A DNA stretch of 64,000 bases. It comes from Fibrobacter sp. GTDB lineage: Bacteria > Fibrobacterota > Fibrobacteria > Fibrobacterales > Fibrobacteraceae. The notes below the pieces were generated by a model, which did no database searches, was not told the DNA's origin, and saw only the letters and a list, made by a program, of their open reading frames with translations. The DNA is taken from contig JAKSIF010000002.1 of NCBI GenBank assembly GCA_024398965.1, forward strand, positions 1-64,000. Direction: 5' to 3'. Each line of letters begins with the position of its first letter. Positions within the stretch are counted from its first letter, which is position 1. Position numbers and translations under genes: made by a program. Below, in pieces: positions 2,760-54,473 of this stretch.

Positions 2760-2815
2760 GAAAAAGAAAATCTTTATATGGTTCCCACGCGGGGGTAGCT
2801 CTCGCAGTTCAGGCA

Positions 2816-2847
2816 AAAATCAAAAGGAGGATTCCGAAGAATCCTCC
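2816..2847 (-). terminator. Terminator of trxA
   Basis: On the minus strand GGAGGATTC-TTCG-GAATCCTCC is a perfect 9-bp stem with a UUCG tetraloop followed by TTTTGATTTTT. It begins 26 bases after the thioredoxin stop and insulates hisF from trxA. Confidence 0.9.
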
Positions 2848-2873
2848 AAAAATCTTTTTCCGTAGGCTGGTAA

Positions 2874-3197
2874 TTACAGATTTCTGTCGATAACAGTCTT
2901 CACCGTGTTCTTGGGAACTGCACCAACCACATTACCCACTTCCACACCGTTTCTGAACAGCTTCATGTTGGGGATATTGGTGATACCGAAGCGAGCGCAA
3001 ATATCGCTAACACCCGGGTCATCCACGTTGATCTTGGCGATGATAGCCATGCCATCGTATTCGGCGGCCAGTTCATCAACAATGGGTCCCATCATCATGC
3101 AAGGACGGCACCAGGTTGCCCAAAAATCAACAAAGACCAACTGACCAGAACTAATCACTTCGTCAAAATTTTCTGCGGTAAGAGCTAAAGCAGCCAT
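2874..3197 (-). CDS. trxA: Thioredoxin with CRPC active site
   Basis: The product is a 107-residue single-domain cytoplasmic thioredoxin, the usual length for TrxA, with no signal peptide. The fold markers are VFVDFWATWC at residues 21-30 and the cis-Pro loop TNIPNMKLF. The redox motif is C30-R-P-C33, where almost all thioredoxins have CGPC; an Arg in the dipeptide is expected to change the redox potential or partner choice. The start at 3197 places GGAG 8 bases upstream; an ATG two codons earlier sits too close to that site. The gene has its own terminator (2816-2847) and a TATTTTGA box upstream (about 3219), so it appears monocistronic. Confidence 0.93.
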   Translation of the reverse strand: MAALALTAENFDEVISSGQLVFVDFWATWCRPCMMMGPIVDELAAEYDGMAIIAKINVDDPGVSDICARFGITNIPNMKLFRNGVEVGNVVGAVPKNTVKTVIDRNL

Positions 3198-3238: not shown

Positions 3239-3910
3239 TTAAATAGCAAAGCCAATTGTGTAGTTAAGATCAATTCCAAAACCAACGGATGTGACTTCTT
3301 CCACATCATCCTTGCTATCACCCTTAATGAAGGCCTTAGAGTAGGTCACGCCGATATCCCAAGAAGAGGTGCAACGGCTCCACATAGTCTTGCTACCAAG
3401 GTAGACGCCAATACCCAGAGAATTACCGGAGACGCTAAAATCGTCATCATGATCACCAGAGTATTCGTAATCAATTCCCACATATTCATACATCACGTGG
3501 AAGGATGCGAAATAACCCGCATGTCCACGGTTGAAGTAGTAACGGAAGCCTTCGGAAATACCAAAGAGATTCAGGTCAATTTCTTCCTTTTCTCGGGTTT
3601 CACGATCCTTATGCTCCCAGCTTTTTCCCAAATAATAGGGACGAGTGATAATGGAGGCATTGGAATTGATGTTTCCTTCTACGGTCAAGAAGATTGAAGG
3701 AACTCCAAGTACGCCAGTATAGATAATCATGGACCATGGATGAAGGGATATGGCAAACGTAGGTTCGCTACTGGCCACCTCGTTGATATTCATCATCGGG
3801 GTTTCCGGAGCAGGAGCACCAGATGTATACTGAGACACGTCATCCTGAGCGGCAGCCGTTCCTGCAAGAAAAGCCACCACAGCCACAGAAGCAAATAATT
3901 TCTTAAGCAT
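3239..3910 (-). CDS. Exported protein, probable outer-membrane barrel
   Basis: This 223-residue protein has a clear signal peptide (MLKKLFASVAVVAFLAGTAAA, cleavage before QDD). The mature part alternates hydrophobic and polar residues with many aromatics, and closes with the short strand-like run LNYTIGFAI, typical of small outer-membrane beta-barrels. I do not recognise a named family. The start at 3910 rather than 3916 gives AAGGA a spacing of 7. It is the last gene of the 8713-3239 operon, 26 bases after the large lipoprotein gene, so it may work with those lipoproteins at the surface. Confidence 0.75.
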   Translation of the reverse strand: MLKKLFASVAVVAFLAGTAAAQDDVSQYTSGAPAPETPMMNINEVASSEPTFAISLHPWSMIIYTGVLGVPSIFLTVEGNINSNASIITRPYYLGKSWEHKDRETREKEEIDLNLFGISEGFRYYFNRGHAGYFASFHVMYEYVGIDYEYSGDHDDDFSVSGNSLGIGVYLGSKTMWSRCTSSWDIGVTYSKAFIKGDSKDDVEEVTSVGFGIDLNYTIGFAI

Positions 3911-3936: not shown

Positions 3937-6120
3937 TTAGTAAATCAAACGAACGCCATCCACCTGCAATGTGGCACCGCTCTTTCCTTTGTAGTGATTT
4001 CCATCGGCACTGGAGGCAAAGACCAGTCGAATATGGGTTACAGGTTCCTCCCCTGTTCCCTGAATCAAGCTATTATCAATAGCCTTTGTATCCTTGGATT
4101 CCAGTTTCGTGTTGAAAATCGAGGAGTTTTCAATAGGAGATCCAGCAAGAGGAGTACCATAGTGAAGTTTCATACGCATGGTGCGCATCTTGGTTGTAGC
4201 ATCGACTGCAGACACGCTAACCACATCCGGATTCTTTCGGCCGGTATTATCCGCAGTAGTAGAGCGATACCATGCTGAGGCAACCAGTTTATTTACATCG
4301 GAACTACTGCGGTTTCGGTTCATGTCTCCAGTTCTGTTTTCTAGAACAAGGTAAATATCACAGCTATCACCGGAGCCGTTATAGTTAAAGGTTACGTCGA
4401 TGTAAGCAGGGCGGGCATTGAACTTTTTACCAAAGTCAAGTAGTTCGTTACCGTCGGGCCAGGTAGAGGAGTTGGCCATGGCAAGTGTGCCTACACCCTT
4501 GGGGTTAAATTCTGCCGTATAAAGACTGCCGCTAGCGATCTTACCTAGAATGCTACTGGTCTTGATTTGCGCTCCAATGACAGATCCAGATGTATACTTA
4601 GACGTGGTTTCACCCACCATGTTGGCATTACCCCAAATGGAATCCGGAGACATAACTCCGCTACTCTTCCAAGTGTTAAAATCGGAACCCGGCAACTGGT
4701 AACCCGCACGAATCGTATACTCAACAGACTCTCCATCATCATTTGTTACAGTAGCGGTTGCGCCCATTCCCAAATCATAAGAGGAACCGTCTTCAATGCC
4801 CTTGATTGTTGCTCCCTTGGAAAGTTCAATATCACTTACAGCAACCTTCGAAAGGTCCGCACGGAAGGGCATTTCATCAAAGTGAACCCGGAAAATCATC
4901 TTGCCGTTTTCGTTTACAGAATCTACTACGGCGGCCTTACCCGCAATCTTCATACCGAGAATACGCGGAGATTCTACAACGGGATAATCTGCAGAAACAG
5001 TCCATTCCTCAGAAGAGCCGTCTTCTGCAATAATTGTCAACTTGTAATCCGAGAGAAGATTAATCTTTTCGTCTCCCACATTGGACGAGGCCTTATCCGA
5101 CACCGACAGCTTGAGGGAAACCTCTGCCGCCGCATTCTTGGATGGGAAGTGCAAGACGATGGTCTTCTTTTCCTTATCTACGGTAGCCTCGTCTGTTTGA
5201 CCAACAGCTTCAATAGCCAGCAATTCCTTTTCAGTAGACACCTCATAGCCTTCTTCAAGAATGGAAATGGCTACAACCCACTTGCGGGAACTGCCATCCT
5301 CGGCGGTTACCGTAAATGTCTGGAAATCCTTCCAAGTTGTCACAGAAGCAGGATCTGTATCAATAGAAGCACCTTCCGGAATAGCGGTTTTCTTAATTTT
5401 CACATCCGCCAAATCAATTCCATTTTCAAGACCGATATAAAGGGTATCGCCCTTTTGACTAAAGCTCTTCTGGCCTTCAAAGGAAATGTCCAAGCTCTTT
5501 TCAGAACTTAAGGTAATGGAGCTGGAAGATTCTTCTTTCTGAGAGGAACTAGAAGAAATTTCCTCAACAGAACTGGAAGATTTTTCTTCATCTCCTGTAT
5601 CATCATCGGAATCACCACTACCCTCATCGTCAGCCTGTTCGCTGGAGCTGGATTCCACCCCAGGAATGGTAAAGGAAATCTGCCAAATAGAAGGCAACCC
5701 GCTTTCAGAAACCACCATCAAGTAGATGGAAAGGCTTGATGGAACCCGAATCTTACTTTTCTTGCCGAGACTCTTTTCCACATAAGAAACATCGTTTGCA
5801 AGAGAATCCAGGGCTGCAGAATCGCTGGGGAATTCCTTGAACTTTCCATCCACCAGATGAAGTGTAGCCATAGAACTGATATCAATACTTTCTACCGTTA
5901 CAGAATCCCAGGTAGTCTTTCCCTTCTTGGGTTCGACCAAGGTAATCTCTACCCTATGCTCATCTTCATAGACCGCAGCATCGCCATCCTGTTCAACGAA
6001 ACGAATGCTATTGAATGTTCTATAGTCAGACGTACCAAAGGAATCGTAGTCTGCGGTGCAGCCTGCGAGGATTGCAAAAAGGGCAAGTACAAAAAGAAGC
6101 GAACTTAATTTTTTCATCAT
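3937..6120 (-). CDS. Surface lipoprotein with Ser-rich linker, Ig-like repeats and PCMD-like C-terminus
   Basis: The product is about 727 residues. A lipobox LAGC near residue 20 follows a hydrophobic signal, so Cys would be lipidated. After a globular N-terminal part there is an acidic linker with repeated SSSS blocks, a linker style characteristic of Fibrobacter. Then come three similar repeats that each end in a motif like EDGSS..W.V (one is NDDGESVEYTI). The C-terminal 230 residues begin GYQLPGSDFNTW and end LQVDGVRLIY; they resemble the putative carbohydrate metabolism domain (PCMD, PF13201) of Bacteroidetes lipoproteins. The downstream side of the 6131-7762 protein is paralogous. GAGG precedes the GTG/ATG cluster at 6117-6123; I chose the ATG at 6120. 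Carbohydrate binding is inference from the domain name only. Confidence 0.8.
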   Translation of the reverse strand: MMKKLSSLLFVLALFAILAGCTADYDSFGTSDYRTFNSIRFVEQDGDAAVYEDEHRVEITLVEPKKGKTTWDSVTVESIDISSMATLHLVDGKFKEFPSDSAALDSLANDVSYVEKSLGKKSKIRVPSSLSIYLMVVSESGLPSIWQISFTIPGVESSSSEQADDEGSGDSDDDTGDEEKSSSSVEEISSSSSQKEESSSSITLSSEKSLDISFEGQKSFSQKGDTLYIGLENGIDLADVKIKKTAIPEGASIDTDPASVTTWKDFQTFTVTAEDGSSRKWVVAISILEEGYEVSTEKELLAIEAVGQTDEATVDKEKKTIVLHFPSKNAAAEVSLKLSVSDKASSNVGDEKINLLSDYKLTIIAEDGSSEEWTVSADYPVVESPRILGMKIAGKAAVVDSVNENGKMIFRVHFDEMPFRADLSKVAVSDIELSKGATIKGIEDGSSYDLGMGATATVTNDDGESVEYTIRAGYQLPGSDFNTWKSSGVMSPDSIWGNANMVGETTSKYTSGSVIGAQIKTSSILGKIASGSLYTAEFNPKGVGTLAMANSSTWPDGNELLDFGKKFNARPAYIDVTFNYNGSGDSCDIYLVLENRTGDMNRNRSSSDVNKLVASAWYRSTTADNTGRKNPDVVSVSAVDATTKMRTMRMKLHYGTPLAGSPIENSSIFNTKLESKDTKAIDNSLIQGTGEEPVTHIRLVFASSADGNHYKGKSGATLQVDGVRLIY

Positions 6121-49424: not shown

Positions 49425-49448
49425 TCTTACCGAGGCTTACATCGTCTT

Positions 49449-49480
49449 TGGGACTCCCATTAGCGGGAGCCCCATTTTTT
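49449..49480 (+). terminator. Terminator of the 46018-49424 operon
   Basis: GGGACTCCC and GGGAGCCCC pair with one mismatch around ATTAGC, followed by ATTTTTT. Its T-run is directly continuous with the promoter box of the next gene. Confidence 0.75.
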
Positions 49481-49492
49481 ATATTTACATTC
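49480..49492 (+). promoter_or_regulatory. TAnnTTT promoter box before the LtaS-like gene
   Basis: TATATTTA (49480-49487), then CATTC, then ATG at 49493. There is no Shine-Dalgarno. Confidence 0.6.
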
Positions 49493-51562
49493 ATGAAGAA
49501 AAAGATTGCAGATGTCATCAGTAAGGTAGCGCCCTACCTGGTTCCCTTCAAGAACTTGATTCCCATTTCCCTGGCGGTCTGGTGCACCCACATCATCTTT
49601 CGCTTCTTGCTATTGTTCCGTAACAACCCTTACGGATTCCCCTTTGTAAGCAAGCCCGACTGGTACATTTTCCACGCCATCTGCATTGACTTCATCTGGA
49701 TTGTCAAGGCGCTGCTGGTGTTCCTTGTTGCAGGAGCCATCGCCAAGTTTGTTGGAAGCAAGTTGAATATCAAGAGCAAGGTTTCCCTTGTTAAGGTAAT
49801 CTCGATTATTTTCGTAATCTTCCACGTTGTCATCATGTTCTTGAGCGCCTTTGACAATGAGATGCAGCGTTTCCTGGGTTGCCATCTTTCCTTTGGCATT
49901 GCAAACACCTACAAGGACGCCTCCTCCCTGATCATGCTCTGGGATTATGTTGGCAACGACTTGTCCATTCCCTATCTGCAGGTTTTCATCGCCCTCTTCA
50001 TGTACCCTCTGACCTACGGTTTCTACCGCCTTTGGGCTAAGAAGGGACTTACCGGAAAGAAGACCCTTGTGGGCATGTTGATTTTCCTTATCGCCTCTAG
50101 CCTTTTCATCAATGTCATCTGGACAGGTAACGCTCGCATGAAGAAGCTGCGTCCCATGGTGACCTTGATCTATAACGAAATCTTCGAAAATTCTGGCAGC
50201 GGAAACCTGACTCCGGAAAAGCTTCCCAGTTACGCCGATTCCTACCAGAAAATCTGGCAGCAGATTGAAGGCGACGACCTCTGGGAATTCCCCAAGGATC
50301 AAGGCAAGACTCCTCTTTACCGCACTCCCAAGGCTGCCCTGCTGCAGGACGAAAAGTTGCTGGAAAGAAGAAACCAGAAACCCAATTTCCTGGTCATCTT
50401 CATGGAATCCCACAGAGGCATGAACACCGGCTTTTTGAACCTGGACAAGCCCTCCCCCACACCCTACTATGACTCCATAGCAGCTAACGGCAGAATCTGG
50501 GAACGCATGCATACCAGCGGTCTTCCCACCACAGGCGGTGTTCTCACATCCCACACAGGCCTTCCCCACCATTCCTATAAGGCCGAAGCCACGGAACTGG
50601 CTCACGTAAGCCTTCCTAGTTACGCATCCATTTTGCGGGACTCCGGCTACGTGACCCACTACTTCTCCGCAGCAGACCCTGCCTGGGACAATCTGGGCGT
50701 CTGGATGTCCAAATGGTACACAGCACAGCACTACGACCGTAACCGCGAAGATGATTCCACCTTCTTTGACCATACCACAGCATACGTCATCGACACCTTG
50801 GCTAAGGAAGGCAAGCCGTTCCTGGTCACCATCACTACACGCTCCAACCATTACCCCTTCAACTTTGCCGCGGGCATGACTGACGAAGAAAAGGCAAGAC
50901 CCCTGACCGAGCGCATCAACGTCACCATGAACTATGCCGACCGCCAGCTGGCACGCTTTATGCGTGCTGTTGAAAAGGAAGAATGGTACAAGAACACCTA
51001 CGTGATTATCCTTGCAGACCACGCCTTCCCCTTGGGCGAAAACGGCGTTTCCACCATGAACGGCGGCGGTTTTTCCAACGCCACCTGGATTCCCTTCATG
51101 ATCTACGGTAACGGCATCGAACCGGGCCGCGATACAGTTGAAACCTCCCAGATTGATATCGCCCCCACCATCATGGAACTGGCCGGTATGGCTGTGCCCA
51201 ACATGTTCATGGGGCATAACTTACTACGTTCTGCGAAGGCCGCAGTTGAAGATTCCGCTATAGCAAAGGATCCTGCAGAAACCACGTCAAATGATTCCGT
51301 GGAAACCTCTGTAGCAGTTGTTGATAAGCGCGAAGGCCTCTCCCTGGGAGCCTACTTCGGATACGCCGCTATCGGTATGAACGGCAAGCGTCTGATTTCC
51401 AAATATCCTATCGACGAATCCACCGAATGGCTATTCAACGACAGCGATACCCACCAGAAAAATAACCTGGCCGAAAGCGAAAAGGAAACCGTCAAGGTCC
51501 TCAAGGAAAAGCTTGACACCCTCATCAAGATTTCCGATTACGCCTTGGAAATCGGATTCTGA
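49493..51562 (+). CDS. LtaS/OpgB-like membrane phosphatase-superfamily enzyme
   Basis: The product is 689 residues. Five or so hydrophobic segments (about 20-210) anchor a large C-terminal domain of the sulfatase/alkaline phosphatase superfamily. Metal-site motifs are NFLVIFMESHRG, the nucleophile Thr in SGLPTTGGV, TRSNHYPF and IILADHAFPLGENG. LtaS polymerises glycerol phosphate from phosphatidylglycerol; OpgB transfers it to periplasmic glucans. The sequence does not show which activity applies. The start at 49493 follows a TATATTTA box by five bases; an upstream ATG at 49448 would include the terminator. It converges on a surface-polymer operon with a related enzyme. Confidence 0.87.
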   Translation: MKKKIADVISKVAPYLVPFKNLIPISLAVWCTHIIFRFLLLFRNNPYGFPFVSKPDWYIFHAICIDFIWIVKALLVFLVAGAIAKFVGSKLNIKSKVSLVKVISIIFVIFHVVIMFLSAFDNEMQRFLGCHLSFGIANTYKDASSLIMLWDYVGNDLSIPYLQVFIALFMYPLTYGFYRLWAKKGLTGKKTLVGMLIFLIASSLFINVIWTGNARMKKLRPMVTLIYNEIFENSGSGNLTPEKLPSYADSYQKIWQQIEGDDLWEFPKDQGKTPLYRTPKAALLQDEKLLERRNQKPNFLVIFMESHRGMNTGFLNLDKPSPTPYYDSIAANGRIWERMHTSGLPTTGGVLTSHTGLPHHSYKAEATELAHVSLPSYASILRDSGYVTHYFSAADPAWDNLGVWMSKWYTAQHYDRNREDDSTFFDHTTAYVIDTLAKEGKPFLVTITTRSNHYPFNFAAGMTDEEKARPLTERINVTMNYADRQLARFMRAVEKEEWYKNTYVIILADHAFPLGENGVSTMNGGGFSNATWIPFMIYGNGIEPGRDTVETSQIDIAPTIMELAGMAVPNMFMGHNLLRSAKAAVEDSAIAKDPAETTSNDSVETSVAVVDKREGLSLGAYFGYAAIGMNGKRLISKYPIDESTEWLFNDSDTHQKNNLAESEKETVKVLKEKLDTLIKISDYALEIGF

Positions 51563-51602
51563 TCCGCCGACAAGTCGTCTCGAAACCAGGGAAAATTACC
51601 TG

Positions 51603-51786
51603 TAGGACTAAAAAAGCATCCCCTTGTTTTTCGTCCTATTTTTTCTCAACAAAGCAACGATTTTTTAGGACTAAACTTTGCACGATTAAGTTTTGGTCCT
51701 ACAAATCACGAGAAAAACAGTCCAACAACCACCAAATCATTAAAAAAAATAGGACTAATCCACTCCTTGCGGGGATTTAGTCCTAT
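51603..51786. repeat. Three tandem imperfect hairpins with shared TAGGACTAA / TTAGTCCTA arms
   Basis: Hairpin 1 spans 51603-51639, hairpin 2 51666-51701, hairpin 3 51749-51786. Each starts TAGGACTAA and ends with GTCCTA; the third pairs almost perfectly over 13 bases (one bulge). All are 36-38 bases long, with different loops and spacers of 26 and 47 bases. They sit between two convergent genes. None is followed by a T-run, so they are not ordinary terminators. A REP-like intergenic repeat is the closest known type. Confidence 0.75.
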
Positions 51787-51794
51787 GTTAAGCA

Positions 51795-51823
51795 GAAAAC
51801 CGTTTCATTAATTCACGAAACGG
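51795..51823 (-). terminator. Terminator of the surface-polymer operon
   Basis: On the minus strand CCGTTTC-GTGAATTAAT-GAAACGG is a perfect 7-bp stem followed by TTTTCTG. It lies 20 bases after the stop of the MMPL gene. Confidence 0.7.
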
Positions 51824-51842
51824 GCAAGATTCCTAACGTTTG

Positions 51843-54473
51843 TTATTTCTTCTTCAGCCAGGAACCGCACAGGTACATAGAGAAGATGATGCTAGTCACC
51901 AGGAACATGGCAATGCCGAGGCAAGCCAAATCGCCGATTCCCTTAAGGCCGCGGTGAGTGGTAAAGAGGAAGCCCACAAAGCCTGCGATAGTGGTGCAGG
52001 AACTGGCGATGACGTTACGGCCAGTGGTGTCTATCAACTGACGGAGGCTCATGTTCTTTTCGGACGTCCAGGATGTGATCATGTGGATGGTGGCGTCAAT
52101 GCCAATGCCCAAAGTCATGGGAATCACAATCACATTGTAGATGCTGATCTTGCCGAATTCAAACATATCCGTAAGCAAACCCATCAAGCCGAGAGTGAGC
52201 ACCACACCCATGCCAAAGGAGACGCAGCCAGCCGCAAAGAGACGGGGTTTTCTGAAGGATACCACCAAGGTACCAAAGATTACCAGGATGATGACAAAGG
52301 CAAGTCTAAAGCTATCCTGCTTCACAGATTCGATTACGTCGGAAAGAATGAACTGGGAAGAGAAGGTGCGAAGATTTTCGCCATCGAAGTTCCAGTGGCC
52401 ATAACGTTCCTGGAAACGGTGCAGGGCATGGGCGTCCCAGCTGGGGAAATCGCCGTAGATAAAGCCAATCTTACCGTAGGAGCCATCCTTTTCTCTCAGG
52501 ATATCCAGAGTCCAGGCAGGCACATCTTCGGCAGTAAAGGTTTCTTCCACTGCAGAAAGCTTACGCAGGGTTGCGATGTTCGTGGAGTCTTCCCCTTCGG
52601 CGCGGTCAAAGACGCGGGCTTCAGCAAGGTCGCGGATTTCCTCGATGATTTCAAGGCGGGCCTTCTGGGAATCCACGGGCGGAACAAAACTCTTCAGCGT
52701 AAGGAAGCTGCCCAGAGTAGAATCCTTTTCCACGTGGAGGCGGACCATCAGCGTATCATAAAGCTTGTCCAACTGCTCAGAGGTGGAGCCCATGACAGCG
52801 GCAGGCGTAGAAGTCACTGCGCGGTTTGTTGCGCGGGTCACCTTGGTAGAAATCTTCTTGTTGTTTGTTTTCACCACCGTAGATACGCGGCGCAGGTTCT
52901 TCATGTTGTGTTCGAAATCCACATCCTTCACAAAGACGAGAGAAACTGCACCCAGCACGAAGCCGATGATAGCTGCATACTTGAAGAACTTGAAGATTTG
53001 CGCGTCATTCCAGCTTCTAGGGAAGAAACTATTCTGAGGAGCAGCAGGAATACCGCCCATGCACTTCACAAATACAGGAAGCACCAGAAGCGATGTCAGC
53101 ATACTGAACAGCACACCGCTGGAAGCCACCACGCCGAATTCATAGAAGCCCTTGAAATGGGCTGCAAGCAAAGTCAAGAAGGCTGCAATCGTCGTAAAGC
53201 TTGCCAAGATGAAGGGTTTCATCATCTTCTTCTGAGCTTCTTCAAGAACCTCTTCCAAGGTGGCGCACTTATGAAGCAGCTTCTGAGCCGTTCCAAGCAT
53301 GTGGATGGAATAGTCAATGCCAATGCCCAAGATGATGGATGCCACAAACACCGTAAAGGGATTCAACTTGCCGTAGAATATTGCAGTAAAGGCGAAGGTA
53401 GGAATGCAAGCGTAAAGCACGGAGGCCGTCACCAGAATCGGGCCCTTGACGCTGCGGAAGAAGAACATGGTCAGCACAATGATCAGCACAAGGCTAATGG
53501 CAAAAGAGAAGATACTGTCGTTAGCAACTTCGTCCACTTCCTTGAGGCCTTCGTAGGTTCCTTCCACAGTAAAGCGGGTCGGTACAGGATAAGTCTTGGC
53601 GCTGAAGTGAGCCAGCAGAGAATCGGTACGTTCCAGAATGTGGGTAACGAATTCATAGTCCGTAGAAGGCTTGATCAGCTTAGCGTTCACCACACCGTTA
53701 AAGAGAATCTTACCGGTGCTGTCAGGGCGAGGAGAGCCAAGCAAGCGGGTCTTCAAATGTTCAGGCAAATAAGCCTTGGGATTCCATTCCTCAGAGGACG
53801 CAGTCTTTGTCTGGACGGAATCCTTATTGTTCTTCTTGAAGAAAGAGTCGAACGCACCGACAGCTTCTTCGGGGAGGCCCAGTTCCTGAGGCAACTTGGC
53901 ATCAAACCAAACACGTTCCTTTTTTTCTGCAGGGGCGGCAGCCTGAGTTGCAGAATCGCCAGAAGCATTACCGTCAAGATCTTCCAACAGGTCAACTACC
54001 AGAGGGCCGTTCTTGCGGCCGATTTCCAGCTGCAAGTCTTCCAAGTTGTCGCGGATACGTTCCAAGTGGCTCACCGGCAGATACAGGAGAGCGTTATCCT
54101 TGAAGAACTGATTGTCGTTATCAATCTGGGTAGAAACGAAATCACCTTCCCAATTCTTGTGGATGTAGTCGCTGATGGAATCCTGCAGCGCAGCCACCAG
54201 TTCCACGTCCTCACTCTGGATGGCAATCATAAACTTGTCGGTACTTCCAAAGCGGCTGAAGGACTCCTCGAGAGCCTTCACGCTGGGAGTATCTTCTGGC
54301 AGCAAGTGAGACAAGTCCGCATCAAGTTTCAATCCCGGATACTTCAGGATTGGGAAAGCCATGAGCAAAGCTAGAATCAAGTAGAAGGCCAAGGCCTTGT
54401 ACTTATGCTTGCAAACCAGAGGAATGTACCACTGGGAAAATTTTTCCTGGAATGATTTCTTTTCTTTCATCAT
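51843..54473 (-). CDS. RND-superfamily exporter (MMPL-like)
   Basis: The product is 876 residues. It has the two-fold RND/MMPL plan: TM1 (about 28-46), a periplasmic loop of about 240 residues, a block of five TMs (DSIFSFAISLVLIIVLTMFFF on), then TM7, a second loop and five more TMs. The TM4 analogue ILGIGIDYSIHMLG and its partner MTLGIGIDATIHMI carry the conserved GIGIDYxIH motif with an acidic residue for proton coupling. The class transports lipids or hopanoids. It is the last gene of a six-gene operon, which suggests it moves a polymer or lipid product. AGGGG before the ATG supports 54473. Confidence 0.9.
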   Translation of the reverse strand: MMKEKKSFQEKFSQWYIPLVCKHKYKALAFYLILALLMAFPILKYPGLKLDADLSHLLPEDTPSVKALEESFSRFGSTDKFMIAIQSEDVELVAALQDSISDYIHKNWEGDFVSTQIDNDNQFFKDNALLYLPVSHLERIRDNLEDLQLEIGRKNGPLVVDLLEDLDGNASGDSATQAAAPAEKKERVWFDAKLPQELGLPEEAVGAFDSFFKKNNKDSVQTKTASSEEWNPKAYLPEHLKTRLLGSPRPDSTGKILFNGVVNAKLIKPSTDYEFVTHILERTDSLLAHFSAKTYPVPTRFTVEGTYEGLKEVDEVANDSIFSFAISLVLIIVLTMFFFRSVKGPILVTASVLYACIPTFAFTAIFYGKLNPFTVFVASIILGIGIDYSIHMLGTAQKLLHKCATLEEVLEEAQKKMMKPFILASFTTIAAFLTLLAAHFKGFYEFGVVASSGVLFSMLTSLLVLPVFVKCMGGIPAAPQNSFFPRSWNDAQIFKFFKYAAIIGFVLGAVSLVFVKDVDFEHNMKNLRRVSTVVKTNNKKISTKVTRATNRAVTSTPAAVMGSTSEQLDKLYDTLMVRLHVEKDSTLGSFLTLKSFVPPVDSQKARLEIIEEIRDLAEARVFDRAEGEDSTNIATLRKLSAVEETFTAEDVPAWTLDILREKDGSYGKIGFIYGDFPSWDAHALHRFQERYGHWNFDGENLRTFSSQFILSDVIESVKQDSFRLAFVIILVIFGTLVVSFRKPRLFAAGCVSFGMGVVLTLGLMGLLTDMFEFGKISIYNVIVIPMTLGIGIDATIHMITSWTSEKNMSLRQLIDTTGRNVIASSCTTIAGFVGFLFTTHRGLKGIGDLACLGIAMFLVTSIIFSMYLCGSWLKKK

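Follow-up and report, generated by a model that had tools for sequence, protein, structure and literature searches.

Clustered intergenic palindromes of species-specific sequence at gene 3' ends are familiar from REP/BIME elements with RAYT, in which the whole element including the loop is conserved. Wide half-site operators and phased operator arrays are also known, for example those of BirA and the looping arrays of LacI/GalR, which combine distant inverted half-sites with a dependence on whole helical turns and an array upstream of the own gene. Homing and restriction endonucleases and PDC-S68 are encoded by patchy multi-copy genes and have a PD-(D/E)XK-like domain and sequence-specific two-part sites, the insertion of a homing endonuclease gene destroying its target. 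Finally, the DUS/USS are short motifs with inverted pairs at terminators and species dialects, and the CRISPR-like arrays are direct repeats with a uniform unit length.

The array described here was found in a window of 64,000 nucleotides (the whole stretch of Fibrobacter sp. DNA that was analysed). Its sites have the placement and species specificity of the REP/BIME, the half-site geometry and phasing of the operators, the type of candidate protein and two-part site of the endonucleases and the motif habit of the DUS/USS, but they also differ from each of them. A REP-like nature, offered in an earlier note on this DNA, is unsupported: such an origin was rejected on core variability and helical spacing, the 18-bp cores differing and the distances being whole-turn, while the sites were symmetric with no asymmetric tetranucleotide seen, the copies numbered tens, not hundreds, and the candidate cognate protein was of the PD-(D/E)XK type. 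Compared with BirA and LacI/GalR-type operators, the arrays had 2–6 sites each and occurred at a dozen loci, for the most part at gene ends and not at promoters, together with a putative nuclease domain and a private code for each paralogue. In contrast to homing targets, the sites were intact beside the gene (at five loci on both sides of it) and elsewhere, and the protein differed from restriction/homing enzymes and PDC-S68 in its N-terminal helix-hairpin-helix part, which had no sequence match in Pfam, NCBIfam or PDB. The fixed 18-bp gap, helical spacing and only tens of copies distinguished the sites from DUS/USS, and in place of CRISPR-like repeats there were dyads spaced 52 to 242 bp apart in whole turns. 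Each known kind compared either lacked agreement in one or more of the defining features tested or accounted for the system only in part, REP being set apart by cores and spacing.

The window contained three sites of the form TAGGACTAA-N18-TTAGTCCTA; sites 1 and 2 each carry a single arm change. The features concerned are the following:

49448..51562, + strand: left convergent ORF, reading like a membrane sulfatase-type protein (named by reading; no functional tie to the array is thought to exist)
51603..51638: site 1, arms TAGGACTAA / TTCGTCCTA (one arm change), closest to the + strand gene; hairpin and T-run make it terminator-like as well
51639..51644, + strand: run of six T that follows site 1 when the left gene is read
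51666..51701: site 2, arms TAGGACTAA / TTGGTCCTA, 63 bp or 6.0 turns from site 1
51742..51749, - strand: run of eight A preceding site 3; when the right gene is read, on the minus strand, this is a run of eight T
51750..51785: site 3, perfect arms, 84 bp or 8.0 turns from site 2
51843..54473, - strand: right convergent ORF, reading like an RND/MMPL-type exporter (named by reading)
G000:C5:70369-71250, outside the window: best candidate cognate gene in the source genome (G000)

The earlier note had recognised three similar elements with shared arms and different centres in the 280 bases separating two convergent operons, and both points proved correct: the gap spans 51563-51842, between ORFs ending at 51562 (+) and 51843 (-), and the pattern TAGGAC-N14..36-GTCCTA matched three times in the window against 0.03 expected by chance, a count reached in 0/100 shuffles. 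Its description of the elements as 36–38 bases long, irregularly spaced and lacking T-runs had to be corrected: all three were exactly 36 bp, their spacing followed the helical repeat and both outer sites had T-runs. All exact TAGGACTAA copies in the window lay inside the three sites with no lone half-sites, unlike the single copies of DUS, and a de novo dyad-array search of the window gave no second array besides the 51603-51785 set. The right ORF was conserved in 80/80 genomes of the genus; the window array was not conserved likewise. The three sites are best interpreted as a 'solo' array belonging to a protein-array system, with outer sites that also look like terminators.

Further copies of the arm pair, for which the note had proposed a genome-wide search, were indeed present: the source genome (3.59 Mb in 151 contigs) contained 45 sites at up to 3 mismatches in 13 loci, and weaker partner sites lengthened several of the arrays. 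The arms were conserved and the cores free, as had been claimed, the 18-bp cores differing at nearly every site of this genome. Excluding two 53-bp tandem expansions (C11 and C62) from the spacing statistics, none of the other 25 intervals in G000 or of 16 from other Fibrobacter genomes deviated by more than 1.5 bp from a whole multiple of 10.5 bp, and the best period was 10.52 bp, with an equally good fit in 0/20000 random sets. Such a period indicates that DNA, not RNA, is being read. Of the options in the earlier note, 'protein sites' is supported. At the junction of pmbA/tldD-like and lgt-like genes (flanking-gene names are sequence readings unless backed by Pfam), arrays were present in five species with varying site number and spacing, the phase always being kept. 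The A+T content was highest around the dyad, where it reached 0.77 to 0.96, and again some 10 bp to either side at the inner ends of the arms, with a dip between, a pattern expected for DNA bent around a protein. The arrays at G000:C11:19057-19304, C62:8247-8547 and G168:C1:43709-44062 were enlarged as near-identical 53-bp tandem repeats, which suggests that slippage by exactly five turns makes arrays longer.

The copies were intergenic and mostly convergent, two points that the note had proposed to check: among 38 arrays with both neighbours called, the gap was convergent for 22, tandem for 15 and divergent for one, compared to 3/33 convergent junctions of the window's long genes (P = 2e-5). 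The first site from a gene's 3' end folded better (mean -13.4 kcal/mol) than directions without a gene end (about -9), and a T-run of at least five was found at 18/46 first sites, while interior sites seldom had both a stable hairpin and a T-run. The outermost sites probably often double as intrinsic terminators, and a terminator function fits only these. No Rfam family matched at the arrays of six loci.

Exact AGGACTAA-N18-TTAGTCCT sites occurred in 9/168 genomes of the phylum, all of one genus. In rumen Clostridia the same geometry was found on the GGACTAA core, its outer two bases varying by genome (TA/TG, GT, AC, GG, AT). At the two junctions compared, genomes without the motif had no arrays with any arms.

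The candidate protein was found through its position. The array next to an lspA-like gene adjoins the start of a gene for a protein of about 282 aa in G000, G011, G025 and G034 (four Fibrobacter species), and in the rumen Clostridium G168 a GGACTAA array adjoins a homologue. Closest family members occurred in genomes with GGACTAA sites (P = 2e-6). Three genomes (G030, G031, G032) had GGACTAA arrays without a recognised close family member, for which draft gaps or gene loss may account. The family as a whole had no sequence match in Pfam, NCBIfam or PDB; its C-terminal part matched PADLOC PDC-S68 in 5/5 members and also HEAT_CxxC_PDDEXK. E190, D221 and E236-H237 were invariant across 50 sequences and are candidate catalytic residues in an alpha-beta core. 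In the AlphaFold model (pLDDT 89.5) a helix, a beta-hairpin and a long helix precede the alpha-beta domain. Fold matches in the PDB were weak (best Bax1 endonuclease, E 0.015; DrdV and MunI also), and viral protein matches included restriction-enzyme and DUF2726 proteins. A PD-(D/E)XK nuclease domain is predicted for the family. No methyltransferase was recognised, by reading, among the gene neighbours in G000. The family was present in 50/80 Fibrobacter genomes and in 111/115 genomes of a Clostridial family, with 1–15 copies per genome in the two phyla, while phages and plasmids gave few protein matches, all of them partial.

Association of the family with arrays was not limited to one code. 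A de novo scan found adjacent phased dyad arrays at 41/60 family loci and at 0/58 control loci (P = 2e-17), the controls being flanks of single-copy genes unmatched to the family loci in intergenic length; the remaining 19 family loci had no array at the scan threshold. At 35 of the 41 array loci the array was solely upstream of the gene, with sites at a median of 86 bp from its start. The arms were locus-specific, for example TAGGACTAAA, TGCTACTAAA, GCAGACTAAA and GGGCATATAA, and their similarity tracked protein similarity in pairs below 85% identity, equally strongly in 0/2000 permutations that treated loci as exchangeable and left shared descent of neighbouring DNA uncorrected. The spacing period in these arrays was 10.60; the underlying list includes several arrays that are uniform tandem repeats and a few with GGACTAA whose register is shifted. 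A family member owning a code should have this code in dispersed arrays as well, and the prediction was tested with the second code, TGTCACTAA, of the member on G000:C28: in 14 genomes searched, six related genomes had 7 to 15 sites each, in dispersed phased arrays with a best period of 10.52, and eight control genomes had no sites. An orthologue of the G000:C28 member, 74–100% identical to the G033 copy, was present in four of the six, and G011 and G034 had TGTCACTAA arrays without a recognised one, for which draft gaps or loss of the gene may again account.

The associations found speak strongly for recognition of the arrays by the family protein, and the elements of the window are quite probably a 'solo' array of DNA-binding dyads for this chromosomal PD-(D/E)XK nuclease-like protein. 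A dimer would contact both 9–10-bp arms of one 36-bp site and bend its A/T-rich centre, and further dimers, bound to the same side of the helix at distances of at least five full turns, would meet it, which would allow cooperative binding. Other probable targets of the protein are the array immediately in front of its own gene, through which it would regulate itself, and some dozen solo arrays, most of them located at the 3' ends of genes, where the outermost site would often serve as an intrinsic terminator too. Private arm sequences in many family members would give several orthogonal protein-array networks per genome. On a wider scale, there is a nearly even chance that the findings represent a large, undescribed class of modules shared by gut anaerobes from two phyla. 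Its PD-(D/E)XK proteins would evolve fast and each have a code of its own in helically phased dyad arrays, both next to the gene and at gene ends elsewhere; the genes would spread as cassettes bracketed by direct repeats of the array, and the proteins would form an orthogonal, code-switching repertoire of DNA-binding nucleases. No description of such a system was found in open-access papers and family libraries, and the open-access literature on Fibrobacter intergenic palindromes, helical phasing and the motif gave nothing relevant.

Among the explanations of purpose, whose likelihoods overlap with that of array binding and need not add up to one, a selfish or mobile nuclease cassette is a serious possibility, if somewhat short of even; since it concerns purpose, it is compatible with binding. 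The gene with one array would move in and out of arrays, solo arrays being landing sites or remnants after gene loss by recombination between flanking arrays. At five loci the family gene stood between direct repeats of its own array: at G011:C31 (L306) the repeats 2420-2674 and 3595-3849 were 255 bp long and 98% identical, at G030:C13 (L322) 2796-3072 and 4126-4402 were 277 bp long and 96% identical, and at the other three the identity was near 81%. The first two lie at gene 3' ends, as the solo arrays do. These repeats, the patchy multi-copy distribution in two phyla and the arrays without a recognised gene all favour such a cassette. However, solo arrays keep arms and phase despite turnover of cores and spacing and have the same arm code as the rest of their genome, neither of which neutral scars would do, and the flanking sites are intact, contrary to homing targets. 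The array direct repeats, together with a conserved TGTCACTAA locus, suggest spread by recombination; at this locus (G000:C7:29682-29896 with counterparts in G011, G032 and G033; L332, L324, L327, L328) array, spacers and cores look, by eye, more alike across the four species than their surroundings. The G011:C31 and G030:C13 loci look like cassettes of about 1.2–1.3 kb that were inserted or duplicated not long ago.

A defence or programmed-death module, with the nuclease kept on its arrays by autorepression and attacking DNA once infection or stress disturbs the binding, appears unlikely. Its domain matches to the PADLOC candidate families and its fast divergence with retained catalytic residues would fit; however, the PADLOC match is limited to the nuclease part, the family is not on phages or plasmids and the dispersed arrays are left unexplained. 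We similarly doubt that the arrays with bound protein act as transcription boundaries or chromosome-structure elements, that is, as road-blocks or bridges at gene ends, notably convergent ones: the convergent bias and the folding and T-runs of the outermost sites agree with this, but neither an active nuclease nor private codes would be needed, and arrays at these junctions are absent from most Fibrobacter genomes. RNA hairpins alone, either ordinary tandem terminators or the RNA stability elements of the earlier note, are very improbable: the outer sites do look like good terminators, but interior sites fold more weakly, the arms are non-identical in 56/99 distinct Fibrobacter sites and RNA structure does not explain a spacing with B-DNA periodicity. 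Least credible is an RNA-guided system, in which the units, whose ends are conserved and whose 18-base middles vary, would act as guides for the nuclease-like protein encoded next to them, given their symmetric dyads 5 to 23 whole B-DNA turns apart, the absence of an Rfam match and the solo arrays distant from any family gene.

If binding of the arrays by the nuclease-like protein is confirmed, it would represent a new bacterial genome organisation in which numerous protein-array pairs coexist and their recognition codes differ even among closely related species. It would also offer a directly testable case of DNA-protein co-evolution, and nature would supply orthogonal binding proteins or nucleases specific for 36 bp. 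Whole-turn dyad arrays are a sequence signature for which any genome can be searched, and apparent terminator hairpins between convergent genes may conceal protein arrays.

Several links of the GGACTAA code were considered and rejected. GGACTAA resembles the 3' end of Cas13a repeats, a likeness judged to be coincidence. A phage link was dropped as well, as the 16-base pattern on 23 viral contigs was few enough for chance and on none had a convincing phased neighbour; a single IMG/VR contig (L120) had two nearly identical TAGGACTAAGAAGT... palindromes (896-931 and 4093-4128), 3.2 kb apart and without phased neighbours. A MarR-family gene was rejected as the cognate regulator, being present at just one array locus, common to three genomes. 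There, a GGACTAA-type pair 190 bp apart lies upstream of it (L100, L115 and L118 in G011, G032 and G033) with cores kept between species, and one site has decayed in the G033 copy, a genome without other arrays of this code. A third code, TAGTACTAA, whose family gene was unrecognised in G000, was observed at G000:C4:30328-30563 (L023) and G011:C24 (L099) with spacings of 137 and 63 bp, and its cores were nearly identical in the two species.
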